Of a stretch of DNA of 64,000 nucleotides, positions 4,891-51,200 are shown in pieces. The position numbers and the translations under genes are program-made. Source of the stretch: Liolophura sinensis (taxonomy: Eukaryota; Mollusca; Polyplacophora; Chitonida; Chitonidae); contig NC_088301.1 in assembly GCF_032854445.1 (NCBI RefSeq), positions 11,156,281-11,220,280 on the forward strand, read 5' to 3'. Position 1 is the stretch's first letter, and each line of letters opens with the position of its first letter. The notes under the pieces were generated by a model. It ran no database searches, was not told where the DNA came from, and worked only from the letters and a program-made list of their open reading frames with translations.

Positions 4891-5102
4891 TGCTAAGGCG
4901 CTGAGGGTTAAGCAGTGTGTTTGATAACCATGTGACATTCGATAAAAGATTCTCCAAATAAACCCCTTGTGAAGAAAGGTGGTGGTTTATGGCTTTTGTG
5001 ACACCATAACATGGGCAGCTCATTCACAAAAAAAAAACATTACAACAAATTTGATTTACAAAGTTTTGTGAAAGTGGCTGATATTCCAAGTGCCAAAGAT
5101 AA

Positions 5103-6277
5103 CAAATGTCTAGCACACTGCTCAGTGTAACAAAGTCTAACACACTGTTCGGTGTAACAATGTCCAACACACTGATCAGTATAACAATGTCCAACAGGCT
5201 GCTAGGTGTAACAATGTCCAACACACTGCTCAGTGTAACAATATCAAACACACTGCTCAGTGTAACAATGTGTAACACACTGCTCAGTGTAACAATGTGT
5301 AACACACTGCTCAGTGTAACAATGTCTAACACACTGCTCAGTGTAACAAATGTCTAACACACTGTTCAGTGTAACAATGTCTAACACACTGCTCAGTGTA
5401 ACAAATGTCTAACACCACTGCTCAGTGTAACAATGTCTAACACACTGCTAGTGTAACAATGTCCAACACACTGCTCAGTGTAACAATGTCCACACACTGC
5501 TCAGTGTAACAATATCTAACACACTGCTCAGTGTAACAAAGTCTAATACACTGCTCAGTGTAACAATGTCTAACACACTGCTCAGTGTAACAAAGTCTAA
5601 CACACTGCTCAGTGTAACAATGTCCAACACACTGCTCAGTGTAACAATGTCCAACACACTGCTCAGTGTAACAATATCTAACACACTGCTCAGTGTAACA
5701 AATGTCTAACACACTGCTCAGTGTAACAAATGTCCAACACACTGCTCAGTGTAACAATATCAAACCCACACTGCTCAGTGTAACAATGTGTAACACACTG
5801 CTCAGTGTAACAATGTGTAACACACTGCTCAGTGTAACAATGTCTAACACACTGCTCAGTGTAACAAATGTCTAACACACTGCTCAGTGTAACAATATCT
5901 AACACACTGCTAGGTGTAACAATGTCCAACACACTGCTCAGTGTAACAATGTCCAACACACTGCTCAGTGTAACAATATCTAACACACTGCTCAGTGTAA
6001 CAAAGTCTAATACACTGCTCAGTGTAACAATGTCTAACACACTGCTCAGTGTAACAAAGTCTAACACACTGCTCAGTGTAACAATGTCCAACACACTGCT
6101 CAGTGTAACAATGTCCAACACACTGCTCAGTGTAACAATATCTAACACACTGCTCAGTGTAACAAATGTCTAACACACTGCTCAGTGTAACAAATGTCTA
6201 ACACACTGCTCAGTGTAACAATGTCTAACACACTGCTCAGTGTAACAAATGTCTAACACACTGCTCAGTGTAACAAC
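5103..6277. repeat. 27-bp palindromic satellite
   Basis: About 43 copies of a unit containing ACACTGCTCAGTGT, whose ACACTG/CAGTGT arms form a perfect 6-bp hairpin stem in each unit. A block beginning at 5511 recurs from 5975, showing a 464-bp higher-order duplication. Open frames here on both strands are artefacts of the 27-bp period. Confidence 0.95.
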
Positions 6278-10100: not shown

Positions 10101-13100
10101 TTGCTGGCAGTGTTATCCAGTATAAACAGATTGAAGAACAACAGAGTGGAGATGAAGATGCTGTACTCTAGACCTGACTGTAAACATACATGTATATGAG
10201 GTCTGTGTAAGGCATTCTACACATAGTTTACATATACGTATCCAATCTGCTACAACATTGTTTTATGATGTGCATGTGTACATCATAACATCTCCCTTTA
10301 TAAAAAAAGCAAAACTTATCTTTGACCTTAAAGAACGATAGAAGAGTCTTTAAAAATAAAGTTCAGTGAAATTCCTTTTTTTCTCTTACAGGATGGCAGA
10401 AAGTATGCACGGCTCTAATGGAGAATGTGTAATTGGCAGTGGTGTTTTATTTCATTGACTGAACAACATTCGTTGGAAAGGGGAAGTAGTTGAATCCTCA
10501 ACTGGTGTGTTCCTGATGTTCGCTAATGCCAGGAAAGGATCAGTATTGGAAAATGTCGCTTTCTTGATAATTCGCTTTGTGGTTTTCACAGTGGCTTTGT
10601 CGTTTGAACGAAAGTATCCTGGGGAAGAGGTGATGTGTGAAAAACCACACTGGTTTGCTAAGGTTGCTGTTCAACGGTGGACGATTGTCAGACATAAACT
10701 AACCAGGAATACCATGGCAGGCGAGGTGTGCTTTGAGAATGAGGATGACTTACGATGAATGAGGATGTTTTCGAGGCTCAACTTCAACAGAGTCGCTGTA
10801 ATAGTCAGTGGTTAGCAGGAAATCCTGGGATTCTTTGTTTTGAGTCTCTCTTTGTTGTTTGGCTTGGTAGGAACAACATGTTTCACATGTGGAGATGAAG
10901 TCACCAATTTCACTGTTCATGGTGGGACAATAAACACATTACCTTGCTCAACGGGGCCTGGATTCAATGCCAGTATGAGAACTGTGAAGACGTTCTAGGA
11001 TGTCCAGTTGGAGGGACTTTGGAATCACGCAACGGTGACCACGAAAGATAATTCCATTTTCTACGGACATTTCATCTCTCATGTTCAAGTAGGGAAGTGC
11101 AACTGATGGAACTTCTTCCTTGCGCAGTGGCCAACCTTGTAGAATCATTGGTTTGGAGGCTTGTATCTTTCTGTGTTGCTGATTGAATTTCTTGCACTCG
11201 CACTTCAGATATAGGTAGATAGTCTGTCATTTTTTCCATGGCAGATTTCTTCCTCAGCCACAGGTATTTCCTCATGGTCAATTTGTCCTTCTGTAATTTG
11301 GAGGTAAGCCCGAGAGAGGATATTGGTGGTGAGGTAGCTTGGTTCTGTGTCTAGAGGAATATGCCAAAAGCTGTGACATACATCGATTTTTGAGAGGACT
11401 TTAGCATTAGAAAGTTCCGATAGTAGATCTTCCATTAATGGCAGTGGGTATTGGCTACCTTTCAAGGCTTTGTTCAGTGGTTATGGGTTGATGCAGATTC
11501 TGAGCGATCCATTGGGTTTCTTAGCGACCACAAGACTTGAAACCCAATCAGTAGGCTTGTTGACAGGAGTGATGATATTTTGCTCTTCTAGAAAGTTCAG
11601 TTTTGAAAGTCTTTCGCAGAGCAACAGGCACATGCCGGAGAGGTTGTCAACTTAAGCGCACAGATTTATCAATTTCAAAGTGCTCCTCCTCTTCCAGAAG
11701 TTCAACTTCATCAGAAAAGACATCAATTAAAGTTGAAAGAATGATGTCCTTTGTCATAGGTTTTGAGACTAAGCCCGCATCAGGCTGGTTGACAGTTGAA
11801 GACACAGTTGAAGTTGGGACAGTGGATGGAAGGGCATTAATTGTAGAGCTACAGGTGTCCAAAGGGCACTTAAGTGTTCTCTTACAGAATTTCCAGTGGC
11901 TGCATTTGTTGAGCAGCTCACATGCCAAGAGGTGTTGCTTTGTTCAACAACAACAGCAAAGTGCATTTTGTAAACTTCTTATGGTCTGTCAATTGATACT
12001 TCAGTGGGAAGATCTGTTCAAGAAATCACACTGCACATATAGCATCAGAGTCTATTTGAAACTTCATTTTCTCAGATCCAAGGAGAAGAGTAGCAAAGAC
12101 CTTGTCAGTAAGAGAGTTCACACTTTCCACAGTAAGAATACTATCAGAAAATGAGTCATCATACGAGGTGTCAACATTGTGTACAGATTGTTTCTTTTTG
12201 TCTCTGGTAACTTTCTTTGACAGACAATGAAAAGCAAAGTGTGAGATTTGGCCACATTTCGAGCATTCTTTGCCGTAGACTGGACATTTTGTCCTGTCCT
12301 GTTCATGTTTTTTTCCCAAAGAACTTACAACTAAATTTAAGGAAAGGTGGGGTCGAAGTCAATTAGAAGACTTGTGACGTTGTTGTGTGGTACTTTTGGT
12401 CACCGTATGAATATCGTCCTTCCCTGACATAAGTTTGACTTGAGAGGTTCTAGTTTCTGCATATCAGCATATGTCAATACAACCGTTCAAAGTTAGTTTT
12501 TGTTCCTGAAGCAATTCCATTGTCCAAAATCCCACACACAATTCTTTCCCGAAACAGTTTACTTTGTAGCGTTCCAAAGTTGCAGGTGTAAGTTGAGTGG
12601 TGTAAGTGTCGATATTCTCTTCTTCCAGCTGAGATCTGTTGTTGAAAATGTATCTCTCATAGATAACATCAGTTTCTCCGAGACAGCGAGTTGCAATAAG
12701 AGTGAGAACCCGTCCCACATTGCCTTTCTCTTCATCTGACTGCAAAGGGAGGTCACTGTAGAATGCAAGAGCGTCAGGTCCTATGCCAGTAATAAATGTG
12801 GCAACGCTGTACTTGTCAGGTTGTTCTGCCAGTCCAGTAACTATTTCATATATATCCCAAACTTTTCATTTTTTCCATTTAGCGCTGAAATTTCCCTTAA
12901 GCTGCAGTTTTGACAGAGAGGGATACTGCTCCTGATCCCCAATCGTGGAGAATCCCCACTGACAGTAACTGGTCCCGTTCCTCTTCACTCATTGTGTATT
13001 TAAATCAATTTTTTTGTTACTTGTCTCCTTGTTACGGATGAAAAGTGTCAGTAAATTACAAAAATGTCACACATGGAGGTTCTTCTGGGCTTAAATAGTT

Positions 13101-16100: not shown

Positions 16101-19100
16101 CCACTGATGTATCATGCCAAAGACACCAGATGTGACAGGTCACCCAGTCACAATACCACAACAGATTTATGAATAAGCCTCTCTTATTCTGGTACACATG
16201 AAGACAGCTATAGCGGCCCGCTTCACTGACATATCCTCACTATTTACCTTGAATCCATCCATCCAGACAGGAGCTGTAGTGGTACTGGACAGTTCAAGGT
16301 CATTCACAAAGGTCAGCTTGTCGTAAGTAGCCAGGTGGGCTTCCTGAAAACAGACAACTTGTTAATACCTTAAACGGGTAACCATACAAACGTGAGTAGA
16401 ATAGTTTGCACAAAAACAAAACATTTTGTTTTTATTAAAGGGGTATTGGACTGATTTGTTTTTCTTACATCTTCCAAACATTATTCTGTCAATTTAATGA
16501 ACATTACAGCTCTTATAGCTTTTATATGCGGACGCATGATACATGTATCAATGCGGTGTTACTTTTAAGTACTGCTCGTTTGTTTCAGCCAAACAAATTT
16601 TTGATATGCTTTTGATGGAATAACTTCTAAGCCCTTAACAGTAATCTGAATAGCTCAATTTCATTTAATTCTACGTTCATAAACTCACAAAAATTCGTTG
16701 TAAAAAAAAAGGCTGTAAAAAGACAGTGACTTCATTTGAATTAACCTATCAAATTATGACAGTGTAATTCAAATTTGAAAGTTTACAATTTGTCATACTT
16801 TACTGTCAATTATCTGGGAAAATAAGCTGGTCATGCAAAATGTTGAGGTCATTGTCTCAAAAAGGTAATGGGTCTAATAACATTTCCTGCCATCACAAGC
16901 CAGTTCCTAGCTGTGTTAGAACAAAAATTCTCCATTACATTTATATTGAACACTCCATCAAGCCTATTTCACCCACTGAACTCACCACATACTAGACCCC
17001 ACCATGCACCAGATCCCACCATACTCACTGTCTACAAGGCCCCATCATACTCACCAGGTCGAAGGCCCCACCATACTCACTGTCTACAAGGCCCCATCAT
17101 ACTCACCATGTTAAAAGGCCCTACCATACTCACCGTGTACTAGGCCTCACCATACTTACACATAAGAGCCCTAAAATACTCATCATGTAGTAGGCCCCAC
17201 AACTCACCATGTACTATACCCCATCATACTCACCATGTACTAGATTCCACCATACTCACCATGTACCAGACCCTATCATACTCACCCCCTAGAAGACCCA
17301 ACCATACTCACCACCTACAAGGGCCGACCATACTCACCATGTAGAAAGCACCAGGGGGGTTCAAACACACACTGGCCTCGCTAAAGTTTGACCAGGGAAT
17401 GTTACAGGCACCATCCACAGCTACCTGGAAAATAAAGCATTCATGTATCATAGGTTCATATTTTAAACTTAATAGGGGGTTTCAGTAGGCCTAACTACAC
17501 AGGTGATGCAAAATTATCAAATGTACATGTAATAGGGAAAAGCTGAGAAAAGCTTAGAAAAACATCACAATTTTGTTGGTCCTGTTGTATTAATTACAGT
17601 ATTAATCACCTTTAATTTCATAGGATTTTTCAGACAGTTAAATTATGAAGTACATACTTTAAGTCCATGCACAGGGCTGTAAGTAGATATAAAGGTCAGG
17701 TCCTGATCTAAGGGACGGCTGTCAGCCACGCGTGTCAGCTGATTCTGCAAAAGAAACATGGTTTCCAGACATCAAATATTTAAATATGGAAACAGAAGCA
17801 TATTTCTAAACACTGCAGCCGATGCCACAAGCATCTGATGACTGATTCCTTTCGTTAGGCTTAAATTGTTCCTCTGCTAAAACACTGGCATTCTCGCAGC
17901 AGTTTTTAAAAAAGTTACAGCAGAAATAAAAATCTTGCGGGTTGTTTCTTATGTGCTGAACTATTAGCCAACCAACTATTCCCACTGTGACTAAAAGCCT
18001 GATATGACAACAACACAAAATGATGTTGTTTATTAATTTGATTGGTGTTTTACATCGTACTAAAGAACATTTCACTTACACTACAGCAGCCAGCATTATG
18101 GGAGGAGGAAACAGGGCTGAGCCCTGGGGAAACCCATGACCATCCGCAGCTTGCTGACAAACCTTCCCATGTACAGCAAAATAGGGTTGAGTGGTAACAT
18201 TATCTCCCCTTTGCTTTCAGAAATCATATGCGCGCTATGGAGTTTGACTCATTACTGTATTCCAAAATGGAATCTAACTTTCAAGCCATAATTATATGTC
18301 AAGAATCGTACTAAATCAGTGTACAGGCCCCGAGATGATGAAGCAATCTTAGATTAACAAGTAAGTCATAATTTCAATCTTTAAAGTTGGTATCTTCCTT
18401 TCAACTGTTTTAGTTGAGATTTGTGTTACAACAAATTTACCCAGAATTTTCGCTACATAGCAATATTGACCTTGTTACATAAGAAATAACAATTTTAAAG
18501 TGATTTGAAATTTTGACTTAAGTCAAAGATCCTCAGGCTATAAATTATACTCACACGTATATACTGAGCCAGACTCTTGTCATTGTCCAGTGAGATGTCC
18601 CGTGACAGAGCCAGTCTAGTGACCACCTGTCTCATAGTGACCACTGGTCGTCGGGCCAGGGCACACAGGAGCTGAGTCTCCCCCCGGGATGGCCGACACT
18701 TCTCAGAGTAGTAGATCCTGTCAGTGTAGGCAGGGCGGGGCTGCCACAGCCCTAACCTTACCCAGTCTGACTCTGGCACCCTGGAACACTAGAAAACAAT
18801 GTGAAATACAAGGAAATTAATGTGATTTCCCAACAAGTAATGCCTAACGGCATCGATGGTATTATCTGATTTTATTTATTTATTGTTTGACACTATAATA
18901 ATGATTTTTTACTCACATGATGGTTCTCAGCTTTATGGATGGAAAAAATACAAGTGCCTGAGATAAAACCATCAATCTTTGGCAGGTTACAAACACACTT
19001 TACCGTGTGAGACATGACTTAAACCACAATCCTCTCACAGGGAGTCCTCTGTAGCTTGCTACCAGTACACATGTAGCTGGCTTCTGACATTCCACCACCA

Positions 19101-22100: not shown

Positions 22101-25100
22101 TTCCTAAATTTTCAATCTTCTTGACAAAAGCTCAAGTTGACTGTTTCCTGTTTTAAGTATTTGGACCCAACCCATGTGTTTCACTTGGAGCATCCAATGA
22201 CACAATTAATGGTTGCTCCCACAACTTTCCAAGATAGAGAACTGATAGTGTATACCTCGCTTTTGATATTTATTTGTTTGAGATTGTAAACAACACCTTT
22301 TTATGCACAGCCATTTTTGATTAGGCAGAGTTTGTACCTTTGCTTTGTTTTTCTTGAACTCACAATCACCACACAGATGTTCATTATGATTTCAGTTTAG
22401 ATGGGCAGAGAACATAGTTCTAAAAAAGAGCATAGTATGAAAAACAAGCCTGCAATAACTGAATTCAAAGATGGACCCTACAAAGGTTGGATGTCTGAAA
22501 TGAATTCTGCACTCTAACAGAAAGTTGATATAAGCCCCTCTACAAACATTTATCTAAGATTATCTCTATCAGGAGGGAAAGTGATCTCCAATGAACTTCA
22601 TGCAAGACCACGTCAACCACCTCAGGGACCGCTGTCGTGAGGGAGACTGAAATTTTCAACCACCAGGCCATGATCTCCCTCAGAAAATTAAGTATTATTT
22701 AGTATTATTATTATTATTATTATTATTTTTACGGCCTGCCTCTCAATATGACTGAATGTTGCATCACCAATATATTATTTATTTATTTGATTGTTGTTTG
22801 AAAAAAAGATGCCACTCTCAAGAATTGTTCACTTACATGCTAGCGGTCAGTTGCTTGGGTGGAGGAAACTGCAGTGCCTGGTGTAACCCACCAATCTGTG
22901 TTATAAAGTTACTGATAAACCTTCCTAATCATCACATACAGATACGCACACCATATTTGGTGGAAGGCAAGTGGTCTTAATAACACTAGACAGTACTAAC
23001 AGCCACATCAGCAGTAAAAGTGGGGAAATTAAAAATTCAATGTCCAAAACCAGTTTTGAAGTGAAAGATGGCCAGCTTCTTGTAAATGTAAACCAAGCTA
23101 AACCAAGCTAAACCCAGGTTCATCTTACCTTGAGAACAAGAGTTGCAGTGGCAGGTATATCGGGATCACGAATTTCCTCCTTGTGTTCGTACACAGGGTT
23201 GTAAATATCACTGTCCAGCTTGAACCCAGTCACCATGTCCTGACCGCTGATGGTGTAAGCCCTGTCCATTATGCGGCCAGCCACCTACAGACCAAAAATA
23301 ATGGAAATGTAACCTTCACATCACATTAAAACAGTATTCAGGCTGAACTATGTTCAATGCAATTCTTCAACCTTTCCCCATGTTTGCAAGATGTTTATTT
23401 AAGCATATTCTGAAGGCATTATTCTGTGTAGACTGATAAAATCATACTTTTTGTGAAGCCCTGAAACTGGCCAATACAACCAATATAGTTTGTCTTCAAA
23501 ATCTAACTACAAATGTGCATAATTAAATTGCACTGAAAGTTGATCTTTCAAATATGAAAAGGTTGGGGTATTAGGGTAACCCATTTTTCAAGAATTTTCT
23601 TGAAAATGGTTATCATATAACTGAAAAATTGAATCATATATGGCTTTTTACCATTTAGTGGAAAACTACCTTAAATCATTCTAAAAGCATTAATTCATGG
23701 CAAACTATCCGCCATCATAACTGCAACTTAGATAGGAAAATCACCTTGTCCTCGGAAAAAAACAATTAAACGAAAAATAATGTTGAAGTCAAAGTCACTA
23801 ATTAAAAATCAAGAAATACATTGAAATGAGTACATAGTTTAACATGTAACAGTGATAATGTGTTCATAATGATAAATGAGTAGTATAAGACTTAACTCTT
23901 ACCCGTGAGAATGTGACAGAGTCTGGCAAAAATCTGCCGCCGTCAATATAGATGTCAAACCCATCTCCCGTTGTGAATGGCTCTGATGGGGAAACCTTCC
24001 TGTCTAGTGGCAACCATGCGTCCTAACCGTGACAACAAACAAGGAAACAATCAGAATGCATTCTGCATGTGCCTAGACCGTGACAACAAACAAAAAAACA
24101 ATCAGAATGCATTCTGCATGTGCCTAGGCTGTGACAACAAACATAGAAACAATCAGAAAGTGTTCTGCATGTGCCTAGACCATGAAAACAAACAAGAAAA
24201 CAATCAGAAAGTGTTCTGCATGTGCCTAGACCGTGAAAACAAACAAGAAAACAATCAGAATGCATTCTGCATGTGCCTAGGCTGTGACAACAAACAAAAA
24301 AACAATCAGAAAGTGTTCTGTATGTGCCTAGACCGTGAAAACAAACAAGGAAACAATCAGAATGCATTCTGCATGTGCCTAGACCGTGACAACAAACAAG
24401 AAAACAATCAGAAAGTGTTCTGCATGTGTCTAGACCATGAAAACAAACCCTGAAACAATCAAAACGCATTCTGCATGTGCCTAGGCTGTGACAACAAATA
24501 AAGAAACAATCAGAAAGTGTTCTGCATGTGCCTAGACCGTGAAAATAAACCCTGAAACAATCAAAACGCATTCTGCATGTGCCTAGGCTGTGACAACAAA
24601 CAAAAGAAACAATCAGAAAGTGTTCTGCATGTGTCTAGACCGTGAAAACAAACAAGAAAACAATCAGAACAAATTCTGCATGTACCTGGAACATGAAAAC
24701 AAACAAAAAACAAGCAGAACGTATTCTGTATGTGCCTGGACAGTGAAAACAAACAAGAAAACAGTCAGAATGCCTTCTGCATGTGCCTAGACCATGACAA
24801 TAAACAAGGAAACGGTCAGAATGCACTCTGCATGTGTCCGTGAGTGAAAAGAATAGGACCCCTGCTCTCTAAGCAAGCTTGGTGCAAAGAAAGACTAACA
24901 ACACTCTCCTGTGCAGACATGGTGGATCAAGTTAACTGAATCAGTTCATTTTGCTCTCAATAGCCCCCAAGCCTGACAGCTGCCATAAAATTTCAATTAT
25001 TTTACAGCTTTGCTGGCTATCAGTGGTGTAGTTCAATATTTAAAAGATATTCCCAACATATATGGATATTGTACACAAACTGGGTTTGAAAGCATCTGTG

Positions 25101-33200: not shown

Positions 33201-36200
33201 AAATTAAATGACATCTCTCTTAAATTTAGGAGTTCCATATGCCCTGTTGAATTTTGGAAGTTTTGTTGGCTGCGAAGACTGGTCCGAATATCAACATAGT
33301 CACAGCCAAGATTTCTCGGCTATAGAGATTTATTCAAGAACTTTATGAACTGATATTTCATGCTATGCTCAAGAATATTACACTTCTGTGATTGCAGTCA
33401 GGTGAAAGAGTGTCGGTAATCTGGGCAGAGGTCAGGTGAAAACTACCACACCCCACTAGGTATCAGAAATAAAGGTGACACCATACCACTGGAGCTGGTC
33501 TGTAGGAAGGGGCATACTGGAGACCCACAGGAGCCCTAGACTCGGTCAGCACATCACGCGCATGAGCAATTCGATAATACAACTGAGCATCCCCAAACTG
33601 TAAACACAATGATAAGAACAATAGTAATTTATATATGTACTTTTCGCTTTGAAGCATGGTTTATTGTTATATGACCGAGTGAATATAACAGTAGGCCTAC
33701 TGCTTTCATGTAAGAAGGATTTCTTGTTACCCTTCCACAACATTTTTGCATGTGGAAGAGCAACCTTCAGTGCAATTTATGCACATTTATGATTTGATTT
33801 TGGAGACAAAACTACACTTCTTGGATTGGCCAGTTTAAGGGCTTCACAAAAAGTATATTTCTAGTCTACACAAAACAATGCCTTCAGAATGTACCCCAAT
33901 AAACACTGTGCAAACATGCAAAAGGGTTGAAGAAGTACAATATGTGCATGTACATAAAGCTGAATTTACATCCAAAAATTGCTTTTGTTTCTGCAATCTT
34001 ACTGAAAAGTAACTGACATTACCTTAGGCAATGCTTCCCCAAGGTAGTGATTACCTGAGGCAATGCTTCCCCAAGGCAGTGATTACCTGAGGCAGATTAC
34101 CTGACTTCTCAATGCTGAGAGCCAAGCGAGATAACAAGTACCATTTTTAAAGTCTTTATGACCTGACTTGGGTTTGATCTCAGGTCTCCCTCCTTCAAGG
34201 CAGATCAACACTCTAACCATTAGGCCACCAAAGCAGTCCCCTAAATAGTGTTTACCCTAAGGTGATATTACCAAAGGCATTCACTACCTACACGTAGGGT
34301 AGTGCTTATAACTCATAACTCTAGACAGTGCATATTCCAGGCAGCCCTAGAAAATACTTCTCCAAGATCGTGGTTACATTTTAATTTGGTTTACTTGATT
34401 CATGTTCAAGAATATTTCACTTATACGATGGCAGCCAGCATTATGGTGGGTGGATACTGGGCAGAGCCGGGGGCAAACCCACGACCATCTGCAGGTTGCC
34501 GCCAGACCATTCCACTTACGGCCTTGGTTACATTTGCCTAGGCCAAGCTTTACACACTATATAGCTTAGTGCTAACCCAAGATCAAGCTTAAGGTAACCT
34601 GTACATATACTAACCCTGGGCAGTGTTTCCATGTCTCTGAAGGACAGCAGAGGGCTGATGGGCAGAACTCTGAACTGGATATGAAAACGGCCTGTAGTCA
34701 GCTGACCATAGTCATTGAACACACTAATCTTCGTCCAAGCTTGCGGCACCAGACTATTACGTTCAGAGGTCACAGCGGACGGCGAGGTCAGCTGCAGTTC
34801 CACCACTATTCCAAGGTCACCTTGAACATGACATCTGTACCAAGGACAGAATGTTTGCAATTTGATTGACACATGCTTATGTTGATTTGCCTTAAGTTAA
34901 GATCACATGCAAATGCAATATGCCTGACTGCGAGGACATGTCAACAAATGTTATTTGGTTGTAATCATACACATATTCTAATTTCACACAGAGCGAATAA
35001 TGAACAAAAAACACTGTTCTGCACAAAAGAGTATAATATCCAAGCTCCTGGTTTGTGCATTTGGCCACTCCATCAGATTTGTGAATTTGAGAGTATTTCG
35101 TCAAGGATTGTCACTGCTTATTAGATGTCAAACAGACTGTTTTTTGAATGAATGACAATGGGTTTAAACCTCATCACCTATTTCTTAAATGAATGACAAT
35201 GGTTTTAGGCCTCATCAGCTGTTTCTTAGATGAATGACAATGGTTTTAGGTCTCTTTGGCCAATTCTTAAATGAATGACAATGGTTTTAGGCCTTGCAGC
35301 AGTTTCATGAATAAATGACCTTGCTCTTAGGCCTCATCTGTTGTCTCTTTTTCTGAATGACCTTGCTTTTAGGTCTCTTTGACCATTTCTTAAAAAAAAA
35401 ACCTAATCCGCTATTTCTTGAATGAATGACAATGATTTAAGGCCTAATCAGGTGTTTCTTATAGTGAATGACATTGGTTTTAAAATCTCATTAAATGTTA
35501 CTTGAATGAATGGCAATAGTTTCACGCTTTACCAGCTGTTTCATGAATGAGTGACATTGGATTTAGGTCTCAATTCTTAAAGGAGAAGAAAACATAAAAG
35601 TGATGCCAAAAGCAGATGACAGAGCATCTTTTATTAGCAAATTAGCAAAAATGGTTGTTAATATTTTTTCGATTTTTTCTTTCAGAAGAAAAGGGTGTTT
35701 GTAATTTTGTATGATGGGTATTTTGGACCCTTCTCCTCATATGACAACAGTAAGAGTCACAGCAGTAAGAGTCACAGCAGTAAGAGTCACAGCAGTAAGA
35801 GTCACAGCAGAAATGTACCACATGAACATAAAATTACCACCTCAGTATTCATGAGCACTAATCAGACTTACCGTGGGACGGGCTGTTTAGCTCCCACCAC
35901 AGCCCCACAGTTACCATAGTGATGATCTCTGTACAGAGAGCTGACCTCCACATCCACGGGGGGTAAGATGGCTGCATCCCCTACCCTGGCCTGTGAATCA
36001 TACAGACCCACCACCAGACGGGCAGCCAAGGACCTCGGCAACAGTCCCGTGACAAAGTCGTAGAAGATCACGAAACCCCGGCTACAACAGAAAAGTACAC
36101 ACAATTTATACAAGTTACTTAAATCTCCCTCAAATTTTTTAAAACGATTTGTTTGGAATTTACGTTGTTATTATATTTATTTATTTATTTAATTGGTGAT

Positions 36201-42200: not shown

Positions 42201-45200
42201 CTCCCGTTTGTATTTCTCCAGCTCCCCCTGCTGGCGTAGTCTCTCTATCTCTAGATGTAACTCAGCCATCTTTCTACTGTGCTCCAGTTCCAACTTGGAT
42301 ACCTGCTTCTCTAGTTCACCTGATTCACACACAAATTACATATTTAATTATGCGTTTATTCAAAGATTATTATTTCTTTTAGGGTTTCAAGATTTCTATT
42401 ATAATAAATAATTAGTCTTATTTGTCTTAATTTGTCTACACTGGTAACTGTTTGCCTATTGCTCACCGCTGCTACATGTAGTGGGTCCAAATGTACTAAC
42501 ATGTTTGACCCACAAGGTCTCCCAGCCGTAAATTTCTTCTACTACCTATAAACCAATCACAACCATAAGTACTGTGACTCTTCAACCTTTTCATATGTTT
42601 GCAAGATGGTTATTCAGGCATAAATAACACCCAATGTTATTTACATGTGTATACATGTAAGGTTTGTCAGACACCACTTCATAATACATTTGTTTGTATG
42701 TACTGTAATTCTTCAAGCGTTACACAAGTTTACCAGGTGTTTATTCAAGTAGACTGGTTATAATCCTGACACATATACCCAGGTCACAACAGTACAACAA
42801 TACAGCTAAAGAGAGTTACACAAAAGGGACACAAGTCATGATGATATAATTTAGCTATAGCTAATAGCAAATCTTAGTGACTGGATACAAAATTCAGCTA
42901 CAACGTAAAAGTGCCTGAAAATCACACGACTCATCAGTCACATGTCGTCAACATCACAAGAACTGGGAGAATTTAACAGCAACAAGGAAACTAGCTTTTT
43001 ACCATGGTGATGGTCCTGCGGGTACCGGAGTCTGTCTGTGACGTTCTTCTCCTGTAGGAGTAGCAGCTCCCTCTGTAAGCGGGCATTCTCCAGCTCCATA
43101 GCCTGAGTCTCAGGGAACAGAGTTGGGGGTTTCACTGAAAACACACCCACATAGATATTTGAATTTAACATGCACCTACACAAACTATGTGTAACACAGT
43201 TAAAATGAAAGAAAGCTAAAAAATGTAAGTAAGGATCATAATATAGACAGCTGAAACTGAGACAAATATACCTTCGAATGTGTGAATTATTTGGTGGGCT
43301 TTATGAGCTATATGGACAATATTTTGGTATTCTCACATCAGAAAAAGTTTCTCCCACTCTAAATACAGCTTAGAACGTAGTAATAAGTCTTGTTACTCAA
43401 CACTGAAAGTTTACTTGAATAATATTTTGAAAAGTAAATACATGTATGTATACGTATCTTCTTACTTTCCGATATTTCAACATTTTCAAGCACTACCTTT
43501 TCTGGATTACTGTTCACTACACTTCGCTCTTCATGGTTGATCTTTGATAGTTTACAGACCAGAGGCAGCTTGTACAAAGGGATCGTAAGTCTGAATTCAT
43601 TGTAAATCACTAAGATCACGATCATGGCTCGCACTTACAAATGACATCCTCTTTCCTGAAGGGATTGTAAGTGATGATACTCGCAATTAACAAAGATAAA
43701 TTACCATCAGGTTGATCCTATTGTCAATATTTACATTCGCTCCAAAATAAATGTCGAGTACAAATACTTGCCTTACATAGACTTTAGTTCATAATTTTTG
43801 ACTTGACTTGCAAAGATGTGCAATTTAATTGTCTTAAAACTATGCTACGAGAATTTGTTCGCACACAAGTGGGGGTTAGCAGCTGAATCCTTATAATGAT
43901 GTAGAACTCTTTTGAAAATGAAAGCAATAAAATGTTACTCATTGGTACATTTTCCATTTATACAGGCCACCGTTATGTAAGAATCATCTTACAATTCTTT
44001 TAATTCCTTTAATCTATTTTAGCTATGATCTTTCTGTGCAAGCGCTATATATTACCGAGATACTGGCTTCACACTTCCAGCACCAATAAAGTGTATGATG
44101 ATGTGAACAGCTTACCTTTTGTGGGAGGTTCACAGTTTACCTTTTGTGGGAGGTTCACAGTTTACCTTTTGTGGGAGGTTCACAGTTTACCTTTTGTGGG
44201 AGGTGTGAACAGCTTACCTTTTGTAGGAGGTTTCGGTTTGTCACTCTTCTTTTTATCATCTAACGTCTGAGCCTCACTGATCATGTCTGCCAGCTGTGAC
44301 AGAATTCCTGGGTCATTTCCGCCCAGATGCAGGTAATTCTGACGCAAAGCTCTGAAGGAGGAATTATACAGATGCATCAGAATCCGAAGATACATAAAGG
44401 TGGATTTATTTATTTGATTGCTGTTTAATGCTGTGCTATTTCACTTATACAACGAAGGCCAGCATTATGGTGGGAGGAGACCGGGCAGAACCTGGGGGCA
44501 ACCCACGACCATCTGCAGGCTGCTGGCAGACCTTCCCTCTTATGGCCGGAGAGGAAGCCAGCATGAGCTGGACTTGAACTCACACGGATTGCACCAGTGA
44601 GAGGCACCTGGGTCATTGTGCTGTGCTGGCGTGCTAACCTCCTCGGCCATGGAAGTCCCCTGTACTGAGACATCAGTCATATATAAAAACATTTACCTCT
44701 ATGATAAAATGAAGACTAGAATGCATTTGAGCACTAGTCTACTAAACAGAGAATTGAATCCTTACATGATTGCATAATATTTCCTGCAAAGGAGCGCTGA
44801 ATGCTTTGCAACTTTCACACGCAATCCATTTACTTTAAATAAGAGAGCAAATAAATATCATGTGTTCACATTTAAGACAACAGTGTTAGTTACATCAAAA
44901 CTGAATCTCTGTGGTTAGGGGATCTAATGATTTACCTGAATTGTGTTCTACTTTTACCTGATTTCTCCTGCCAGACTGTTGTCTGTGTTGTACACCACAG
45001 GGAGGGGCAGGGTTTTCTTCTTTCCCTTCTCCCTGTTGGCAAAAAAGTTCTCTACGTACTGTATTTCATCTAAAGTAAAATGGTCTTTCAAAAAGGCACT
45101 TTCAGAAACACAAAAAAACCTTAAAGGCAAAGAATTCACTAAAATGAAGTGCATGTACATATCAGATAAAAGACCACCAAAACCTGTCCAAGAAAATACT

Positions 45201-48200: not shown

Positions 48201-51200
48201 CATTATGTAGAAATAAGCAACTTCTCTATAGCTAGTCTTCACAGCAATTTACACTTTTCTTCCATCCCTAACACATTATGTGACGTATCTGTTCAGCCAT
48301 ATATTTTTTTTCTCTCTATTGCCCAGCTAACGCTTAAGAAACGGCTGATGCAAGGTGGAATCCAAGCGCAGTTGTGTTGAAACACCCTTAAAAAATTAAG
48401 ACAACAGAGTATTTTGTAAAAGGACAACAATGTCTTTGATAGTAATTGTTTTAAAGCTGCTTGGAAATATAAAAATAGTCGATGGGTTTATAAGTGCATA
48501 CCAACAATAATAGAAATCGCAGTTTTTAAATATGGAGTTTCCGTTTCAAGGTGTGGCCAGTTCTTGGAGCAGCAGTTTATAATCAGATTTCCTATGATTC
48601 CGTTCACAATTTCTACCCAAGAGGTTGGCATATTTCTCCATCAGGTGGCGTGAGATTCTACAGATGACATAACATGTATACCATGCCATGGAGACTAGCT
48701 ATAGGGAAGCTGAGTACTTCTAGGTAATGGACTTCTGGTGATATATGATATTCTACAAGAGTTGTGTTTGAGTGTGTTTGTGAAATAGAGTGTAATACTA
48801 AATTCTAAGTTCATTTGACCAGTCAGTCCTTCTTAAGCATGTTTATACATGTGTCACATACAAATACAAATCCAGATGAGGTTACACTGTTTTGATGGCA
48901 TGGGTCATTGTAGTATTTTAACAGAGCCCCATTGCCCAGATAGTGCAAATACATGTACAAAGGTGCCCAAAACAAATCTTTCATTTCAAGGCACGCATAA
49001 AGGAATTCAAAGTAAATTCACCAACATTATAACAACATGTATGCTCACGATATGTAAAATTAATACAAGTTACAGTTGTTGATTTAAAAAAAAAATGACA
49101 ATGCCGCTAAATCTGTGTTTTATATGCTTCAATATTATGTGCTGCATGTGACTATATATGGTGCCACACAACTGTGCATGATATAAGTGTTTATGGTCAC
49201 ACACAACTGTGTCATGATGTGACAGTGTTTATGGTGCCACACAACTGTGTCATGATGTGACAGTGTTTATGGTCACACACAACTGTGTCATGATGTGACA
49301 GTGTTTATGGCCACACACAACTGTGTCATGATGTGACAGTGTTTATGGTCACACACAACTGTGTCATGATGTGACAGTGTTTATGGTGCCACACAACTGT
49401 GTCATGATGTGACAGTGTTTATGGTCACACACAACTGTGTCATGATGTGACAGTGTTTATGGCCACACACAACTGTGTCATGATGTGACAGTGCTTACAG
49501 TCACACACAACTGTGTCATGATGTGACAGTGTTTATGGCACCACACAACTGTGTCATGATGTGACAGTGTTTATGGTCACACACAACTGTGTCATGATGT
49601 GACAGTGTTCATGGTCACACATAACTGTGTCATGATGTGACAGTGTTTATGGTCACCACAGTTGGTCCCATACAACCAGGTCACAGTGTACATGGCCCCA
49701 TACAACCAGATCACAGTGTATATTGTCCCACACAACCAGGTCACAGTGTATATGTCCCACACAGCCAAATCACAGTGTATATGGTCACACACAACCAGGT
49801 CACAGTGTATATGGTTCCACACAACCAGGTCACAGTGTATATGTCCCACACAGCCAAATCACAGTGTATATGGTCCCATACAACCAGGTCACAGTGTGTA
49901 TGTTCCCACACAACCAGGTCACAGTGTATATGGTCCCACACAACCAGGTCACAGTGTACATGGTCCCACACAACCAGGTCACAGTGTGTATGTTCCCACA
50001 CAACCAGGTCACAGTGTATATGGTCACACACAACCAGGTCACAGTGTATATGGTCCCACACAACCAGGTCACAGTGTATATCGTCCCACACAACCAGGTC
50101 ACAGTGTATATGGTCACACACAACCAGGTCACAGTGTATATGGTCCCACACAACCAGGTCACACCAGGAGTGCAGTACCAACACAATGTGTCAGTGAAAG
50201 CATGTTTCCTCACTACTGTATCATGAAACAATGATCATGTGACTTGAAAAAACATATAAGCTTCCATAATACATGAACAGATATGGTCCCACACAACCTG
50301 GTCACAGTGCATATGGTCACACACAACCAGGTCACAATGTATATGGTTCCACACAACCAGGTCACAGTGTATATGGTCACACACAACCAGGTCACAATGT
50401 ATATGGTTCCACACAACCAGGTCACAGTGTATAAGGTCACACACAACCAGGTCACAGTGTATATGGTCACACACAACCAGGTCATAGTGTATATGGTCCC
50501 ACACAATCAGATCACAGTGTATATGGTCCCATACAACCAGGTCACAGTGCATATGGTTCCACACAACCAGGTCACAGTGCATATGGTCACACACAACCAG
50601 GTCACAATGTATATGGTTCCACACAACCAGGTCACAGTGTATATGGTCACACACAACCAGGTCACAGTGTATATGGTCCCACACAACCAGGTCACAGTGT
50701 ATATGGTTCCACACAACCAGGTCACAGTGTATATGGTCCCACACAACCAGGTCACAGTGTATATGGTCCCACACAACCAGGTCACAGTGTATATGGTCCC
50801 ACACAACCAGGTCACAATGTATATGGTTCCACACAACCAGGTCACAGTGTATATGGTCACACACAATCAGGTCACAGTGTATATGGTCCCACACAACCAG
50901 GTCACGGTGTATATGGTCCCACACAACCAGGTCACAGTGTATATGGTCCCACACAACCAGGTCACAGTGTATATGGTTCCACACAACCAGGTCACAGTGT
51001 ATATGGTCACACACAACCAGGTCACAGTGTATATGGTCACACACAACCAGGTCACAGTGTATATGGTCACACACAACCAGGTCACAGTGTATATGGTCAC
51101 ACACAACCAGGTCACAGTGTATATGGTCACACATAACCAGGTCACAGTGTATATGGTCCCACACAACCAGGTCACAGTGTCTATGGTCACACACAACCAG

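Follow-up and report, generated by a model that had tools for sequence, protein, structure and literature searches.

Tandem copies of intron–exon boundaries, known as mirages, have been described in amphioxus in Adh3, TnC, the globin genes BflGb6 and BflGb9, and PGBD5 (PMC3087553, PMC3902484). These mirages occur at donors and at acceptors, have units of 10–72 bp in Adh3, and are reported to be unstable in length and to leave splicing undisturbed (PMC3087553, PMC3902484). They have also been put forward as a route to new introns (PMC3087553). In man, the repeat units of the IFI6 (6-16) minisatellite are reported to be used as donors (as cited in PMC4526556). The intronic minisatellites described in earthworms are not presented as junction-spanning in the portions at hand, and excerpts of work on human internal tandem repeats, a C. 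elegans minisatellite and gastropod haemocyanin introns offer no closer precedent. Among the matches listed from the open-licence PMC literature, no title announces a junction-spanning array in a mollusc.

How does the array at exon 22 of a chiton gene compare with these systems? The window, that is, the whole stretch of 64,000 nucleotides of Liolophura sinensis DNA analysed here, contains a gene predicted on the minus strand as a self-trained exon chain, for which 23 donors and 24 acceptors were scored. We retain the exon numbers (5 and 22) of the earlier note. The predicted gene product, which may resemble CCDC17, has no Pfam family above the cut-off, and an 835-residue part of it has no match in the PDB. 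The 87-nt exon 22 (17424-17338) is predicted to encode the peptide VAVDGACNIPWSNFSEASVCLNPPGAFYM; its real junction reads TGGTGCTTTCTACATG|GTGAGTATGG, with 17338 as the final exon base (table 1).

Table 1. Positions in the window of exon 22, its donor and the junction-derived arrays of the predicted gene.
Feature	Position	Strand	Basis
Exon 22 (87 nt)	17338..17424	-	Splice-site scores at both ends; open frame in predicted exon chain
Real donor junction ATG|GTGAGT	17337..17338	-	9.8 bits, generic donor matrix
26-bp minisatellite, real junction unit then 14 copies	16977..17353	-	TRF; unit cut and wrap-around alignment
Copied donors: 11 GTGAGT, 1 GTAAGT, 1 ATGAGT, 1 lost	16985..17312	-	Unit cut, alignment
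Donor-derived array, exon 44351-44218 (exon 5), five units of ~25 bp	44102..44232	-	TRF, alignment, sequence
Acceptor-derived array before exon 24022-23903, 16 units of 51 bp	24022..24836	-	TRF, alignment

TRF calls the exon 22 array at 17000-17343, with a period of 26, 13.3 copies and 72% matches. The 26-bp segment that straddles the donor is found 15 times, the first being the real exon end. The 14 copies that follow are mostly spaced at 26 bp; donor-like copies end at 17312, 17286, 17260, 17234, 17208, 17184 (ATGAGT), 17160 (GTAAGT), 17134, 17107, 17081, 17055, 17029 and 16986, and one donor-less copy sits between the last two. At 13 of 16 positions the consensus of the copies agrees with the last 16 bases of the exon, a score equalled by one of the 127,146 other 16-mers in the window; the 10 exon bases that precede TACATG attain a score reached by 0.19% of the window's 10-mers. 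We conclude that the repeated segment comprises 16 exon and 10 intron bases, so that more of the exon takes part than the earlier note recognised. TRF and alignment thus bear out the earlier note in its description of a 26-bp minisatellite of about 14 copies of the exon 22 donor, with a unit that spans that donor. The run of strong decoy donors that it described is also present: most copies are still strong by the generic matrix, and seven of the 14, at 9.8–10.5 bits, equal or exceed the real donor (9.8 bits). On the other hand, its statement that most copies keep GGTGAGTATG holds for only half of them (7 of 14; GTGAGT is present in 11 of 14), and the real boundary, which it assigned to the last unit, is in gene order the first.

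Judged from its sequence, the exon 22 array has the anatomy of a mirage. The unit holds both exon and intron sequence of the junction (16 + 10 bases), and a recognisable splice signal (GTGAGT or GTAAGT) is found in 12 of the 14 copies. Like the amphioxus mirages, the array consists of minisatellite-like boundary copies, many of which, though not all, retain the splice signal. The chiton array differs in its mollusc host and in having about 15 units of 26 bp, and it is known here from the genomic sequence of one haplotype. The IFI6 minisatellite has a 12-bp unit. Like the chiton array, it lies at an exon end and has donor-bearing repeats; however, its repeat donors are reported as used, whereas use of the chiton copies is predicted to break the frame. 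The Rogers model, in which introns are gained by tandem duplication of AGGT-containing segments, has in common with this locus a local duplication that multiplies splice signals, but here no new intron is seen and the copies sit within an existing one.

What would happen if one of the copied donors were used? In the predicted frame, use of copy 1 shifts the reading, and the joined sequence then stops at residue 48; each later copy brings an in-frame TGA at residue 39, no more than 30 nt from the real donor. Since copy 1 frameshifts and all later copies read TGA, a useful extension of the exon by multiples of about 26 nt, proposed in the earlier note, is unsupported. The coding isoforms that the downstream donors of an IFI6-type array would give are not obtained in the predicted frame.

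Exon 22 is not the only junction of this gene that lies in an array. The second donor-derived array, at exon 5, is present as had been claimed, and one derived from an acceptor was found in addition (table 1). The last copy of the exon 5 array extends into unique intron, as expected if the array arose from the junction, and the final unit of the acceptor array at 24022 is the real acceptor. Altogether, arrays include two of the 23 donors and one of the 24 acceptors of the gene, whose body contains 14 arrays spanning 3881 of 32,711 bases. An array at 34018-34104 (CAG|GTAATC) was left uncounted because no convincing exon end is modelled at that place. Donor-like sites were present in the consensus units of seven of 48 arrays on the sense strand and of two of 48 on the antisense strand. 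By eye, the first extra donor at exon 5 (44218) would add 27 nt in frame, unlike those of the exon 22 array, and is a candidate for real alternative splicing. The whole window is very array-rich by TRF, with large intronic or intergenic minisatellites at 5100-6276 and 49157-51206 (27 bp × 43, 38 bp × 13 and 30 bp × 52). Broken retroelement-like polymerase fragments were recognised by eye on the minus strand at 10400-12000. Elsewhere in the genome, on C8, eight haemocyanin units of molluscan type follow one another, as befits a mollusc, and one of them matches haemocyanin structures such as KLH1.

Are arrays favoured at exon ends in other genes? We surveyed exons located by profile in dynein, myosin and kinesin genes (261 exon matches in all); the gene in the window, having been picked for its arrays, was left out of these counts. 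Donors scoring 3 bits or less (30) and acceptors scoring 2 bits or less (17) were dropped before counting. The first round drew on 81 of 86 dynein matches (after five from one locus at C1:14.95 Mb had been set aside), on 50 of 81 from myosin and on 66 of 132 from kinesin. It omitted exon matches in long open frames (nearly all the dropped myosin rows lay in frames of over 300 aa), and this sample was biased, because a stop-free array beside an exon itself makes a long open frame. The second round added 64 matches, namely the other 31 from myosin and 33 more from kinesin; the remaining 33 kinesin matches carry internal stop codons and were unused. Expected numbers were taken from a birth-unit null, in which each array is represented by one unit placed randomly in introns. 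We preferred it to a coverage null because an array of n copies stems from one birth unit.

In the first round, arrays were found at 5 of 173 donors and 3 of 184 acceptors, eight observed against 4.4–5.6 expected, and this was read as no excess at exon ends. That reading was overturned by the 64 omitted matches, among which arrays occupy 7 of 58 donors and 3 of 60 acceptors (10 of 118 sites against 2.0–2.6 expected). Combined, the two rounds give 12 of 231 donors and 6 of 244 acceptors, or 18 of 475 sites against 6.4–8.2 expected (P 0.0001–0.002). Three cases are doubtful: L033 is, by eye, merely adjacent to its junction, and the called donors of L140 and L143 are uncertain. Without them, 15 junction arrays are left (P 0.003–0.02). 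The excess is found in myosin (9 of 152 sites against 2.6 expected, P 0.0015) and in kinesin (7 of 181 against 2.5, P 0.013), and is absent from dynein (2 of 142 against 1.4). There is moderate support for an excess of arrays at exon ends, by a factor of about two to three, seen in two of the three gene families. The recurrent formation of arrays at exon ends suggested by the earlier note gains support from myosin and kinesin and none from dynein; the search for donor-spanning repeats in other genes that it called for has been carried through for these three families, with 12 of 231 donors in arrays.

Arrays span 11.1% of the non-exon bases, so that junctions are less covered than intron DNA: raw coverage is 6–7% within 60 bp of donors against 11% beyond 300 bp, and 3% against 14% over the same distances from acceptors. 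By the coverage null, the junctions of the first round look depleted (binomial P 0.0001 for donors, 2e-6 for acceptors). When arrays are collapsed to their birth units, coverage is flat downstream of donors (1.3–1.8%, out to 450 bp) and drops towards acceptors, from 2.2% to 0.2%. Donor 24-mers recurred nearby in 8 of 113 first-round cases, compared with 0 of 113 after shuffling and 1114 of 9124 intron positions. We also counted two donor words over the whole genome (609,464,459 bases in 632 contigs), with matches clumped by array, and the two gave opposite answers. For GGTGAGT there were 2660 triples against 1724 for the reversed word, and 112,676 singles against 63,367, which is no excess of triples per single site. 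For AGGTAAGT, 482 triples against 258 reversed, with 26,582 singles against 29,090, amount to an excess of about twofold.

If the copied donors had a function, would they be better conserved than the rest of the unit? In the exon 22 array, with the real unit included, mismatches fall in 3 of 84 cells of the donor hexamer and in 60 of 280 elsewhere (p 0.0046), and the hexamer is the best conserved of the 26 rotations. Special conservation of the copied donors was suggestive when six donor arrays were combined (p 0.025) and vanished at eleven (Fisher p 0.14, or 0.56 without the exon 22 array); four acceptor arrays combined give p 0.48. Across these arrays we see no general conservation of copied donors. 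A 31-bp donor array of 18 units in a myosin gene (L119, G000:C12:682920-685310) has weakened donors such as GTCAGT and GTCACT in 16 units, GTGAGT being kept by the first and last; such decay is as expected of copies that lack function.

Taken together, these observations lead us to regard the exon 22 array as a junction-spanning minisatellite, a mirage in the amphioxus sense, probably born by duplication across the donor and most likely near-neutral. The 26-bp segment would first have been doubled across the junction by slippage or a similar event, and afterwards amplified within the intron by further slippage or by unequal exchange. Duplicating a segment across a donor keeps the upstream copy attached to an intact exon, and the message can therefore stay unchanged as long as the first donor is used. 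This donor would be expected to win, since it is transcribed earliest and adjoins the exon's own enhancers; leaky use of later copies would produce frameshifted or stop-bearing messages, to be removed by nonsense-mediated decay. Several lines of evidence argue for such an origin and for near-neutrality: the composition of the unit, with its 13 of 16 matching exon positions; the frameshift or stop in every predicted decoy product of exon 22; the want of special donor conservation over eleven arrays; the undisturbed splicing reported for amphioxus mirages; the run of the last exon 5 copy into unique intron; and the 18 junction arrays among 475 sites, where 6.4–8.2 were expected. Against this account stand the well-kept hexamer of exon 22, which would not be expected of every neutral array, the in-frame 27 nt predicted at exon 5 and the use reported for the IFI6 donors (PMC4526556). 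The last of these provides the precedent for supposing that the chiton copies, too, serve as alternative 5' splice sites, and seven of them score no lower than the real donor; nevertheless, the frameshift of copy 1, the TGA in every later copy and the normal splicing reported for amphioxus (PMC3087553, PMC3902484) make this unlikely. Still less credible, indeed highly improbable, is that selection keeps the copies as a cluster of U1-binding sites reinforcing the exon end or protecting the intron: the p values of 0.0046 for exon 22 and 0.025 for six arrays speak for it, but the signal was lost with five more donor arrays, and the donors of L119 have decayed.

Compatible with the mirage explanation is the further proposal that the minisatellites of this genome are born preferentially at splice junctions, chiefly at donors, for instance through transcription-linked DNA structures or repair. 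Such arrays do seem to arise or persist at junctions here at some two to three times the rate of random intron birth. The survey totals, the myosin and kinesin counts, the 12 of 231 donors beside a collapsed density of 1.3–1.8% downstream, the twofold excess of AGGTAAGT triples and the seven sense against two antisense arrays with donor-like sites all point this way. Pointing the other way are the dynein result, the three doubtful arrays, the lack of excess for GGTGAGT, the minimum of raw coverage close to splice sites and the modest first-round count; moreover, longer survival or easier detection could account for the excess in place of birth. We hold this proposal to be a reasonable possibility that falls short of probable. 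Slightly more doubtful is its stronger form, in which junctions, donors especially, are hot spots of minisatellite birth, with some 3–4% of sites in arrays of their own making, two to three times the random figure.

The presence of junction arrays in a mollusc suggests that mirages also occur outside the lancelets, and adds a phylum to their distribution; the survey supplies a frequency, 15–18 of 475 splice sites. With a null that counts one unit per array, not coverage, the preference for exon ends can be put to the test in any fully annotated genome. Should the excess prove real, it would point to mutation at exon ends as a source of material for alternative splicing and for the gain of introns; if junctions are indeed hot spots, ready-made extra splice sites would keep arising, a standing source of isoforms and introns. 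In addition, the arrays offer natural experiments on the choice that the spliceosome makes among many near-identical donors.

The myosin and kinesin matches include very long open frames across introns, up to 1870 aa, which are probably stop-free tandem arrays. Such intron-crossing frames distort surveys of exons and may lead gene prediction astray. An acceptor array at L129 (G000:C1:67511240-67513180) has a unit of 95 bp, about 50 of which belong to the exon. In a kinesin gene (L087, G000:C1:4570460-4571600), a 63-bp unit contains AG, then 36 nt of open frame, then GT, so that this array may be a row of possible whole mini-exons.
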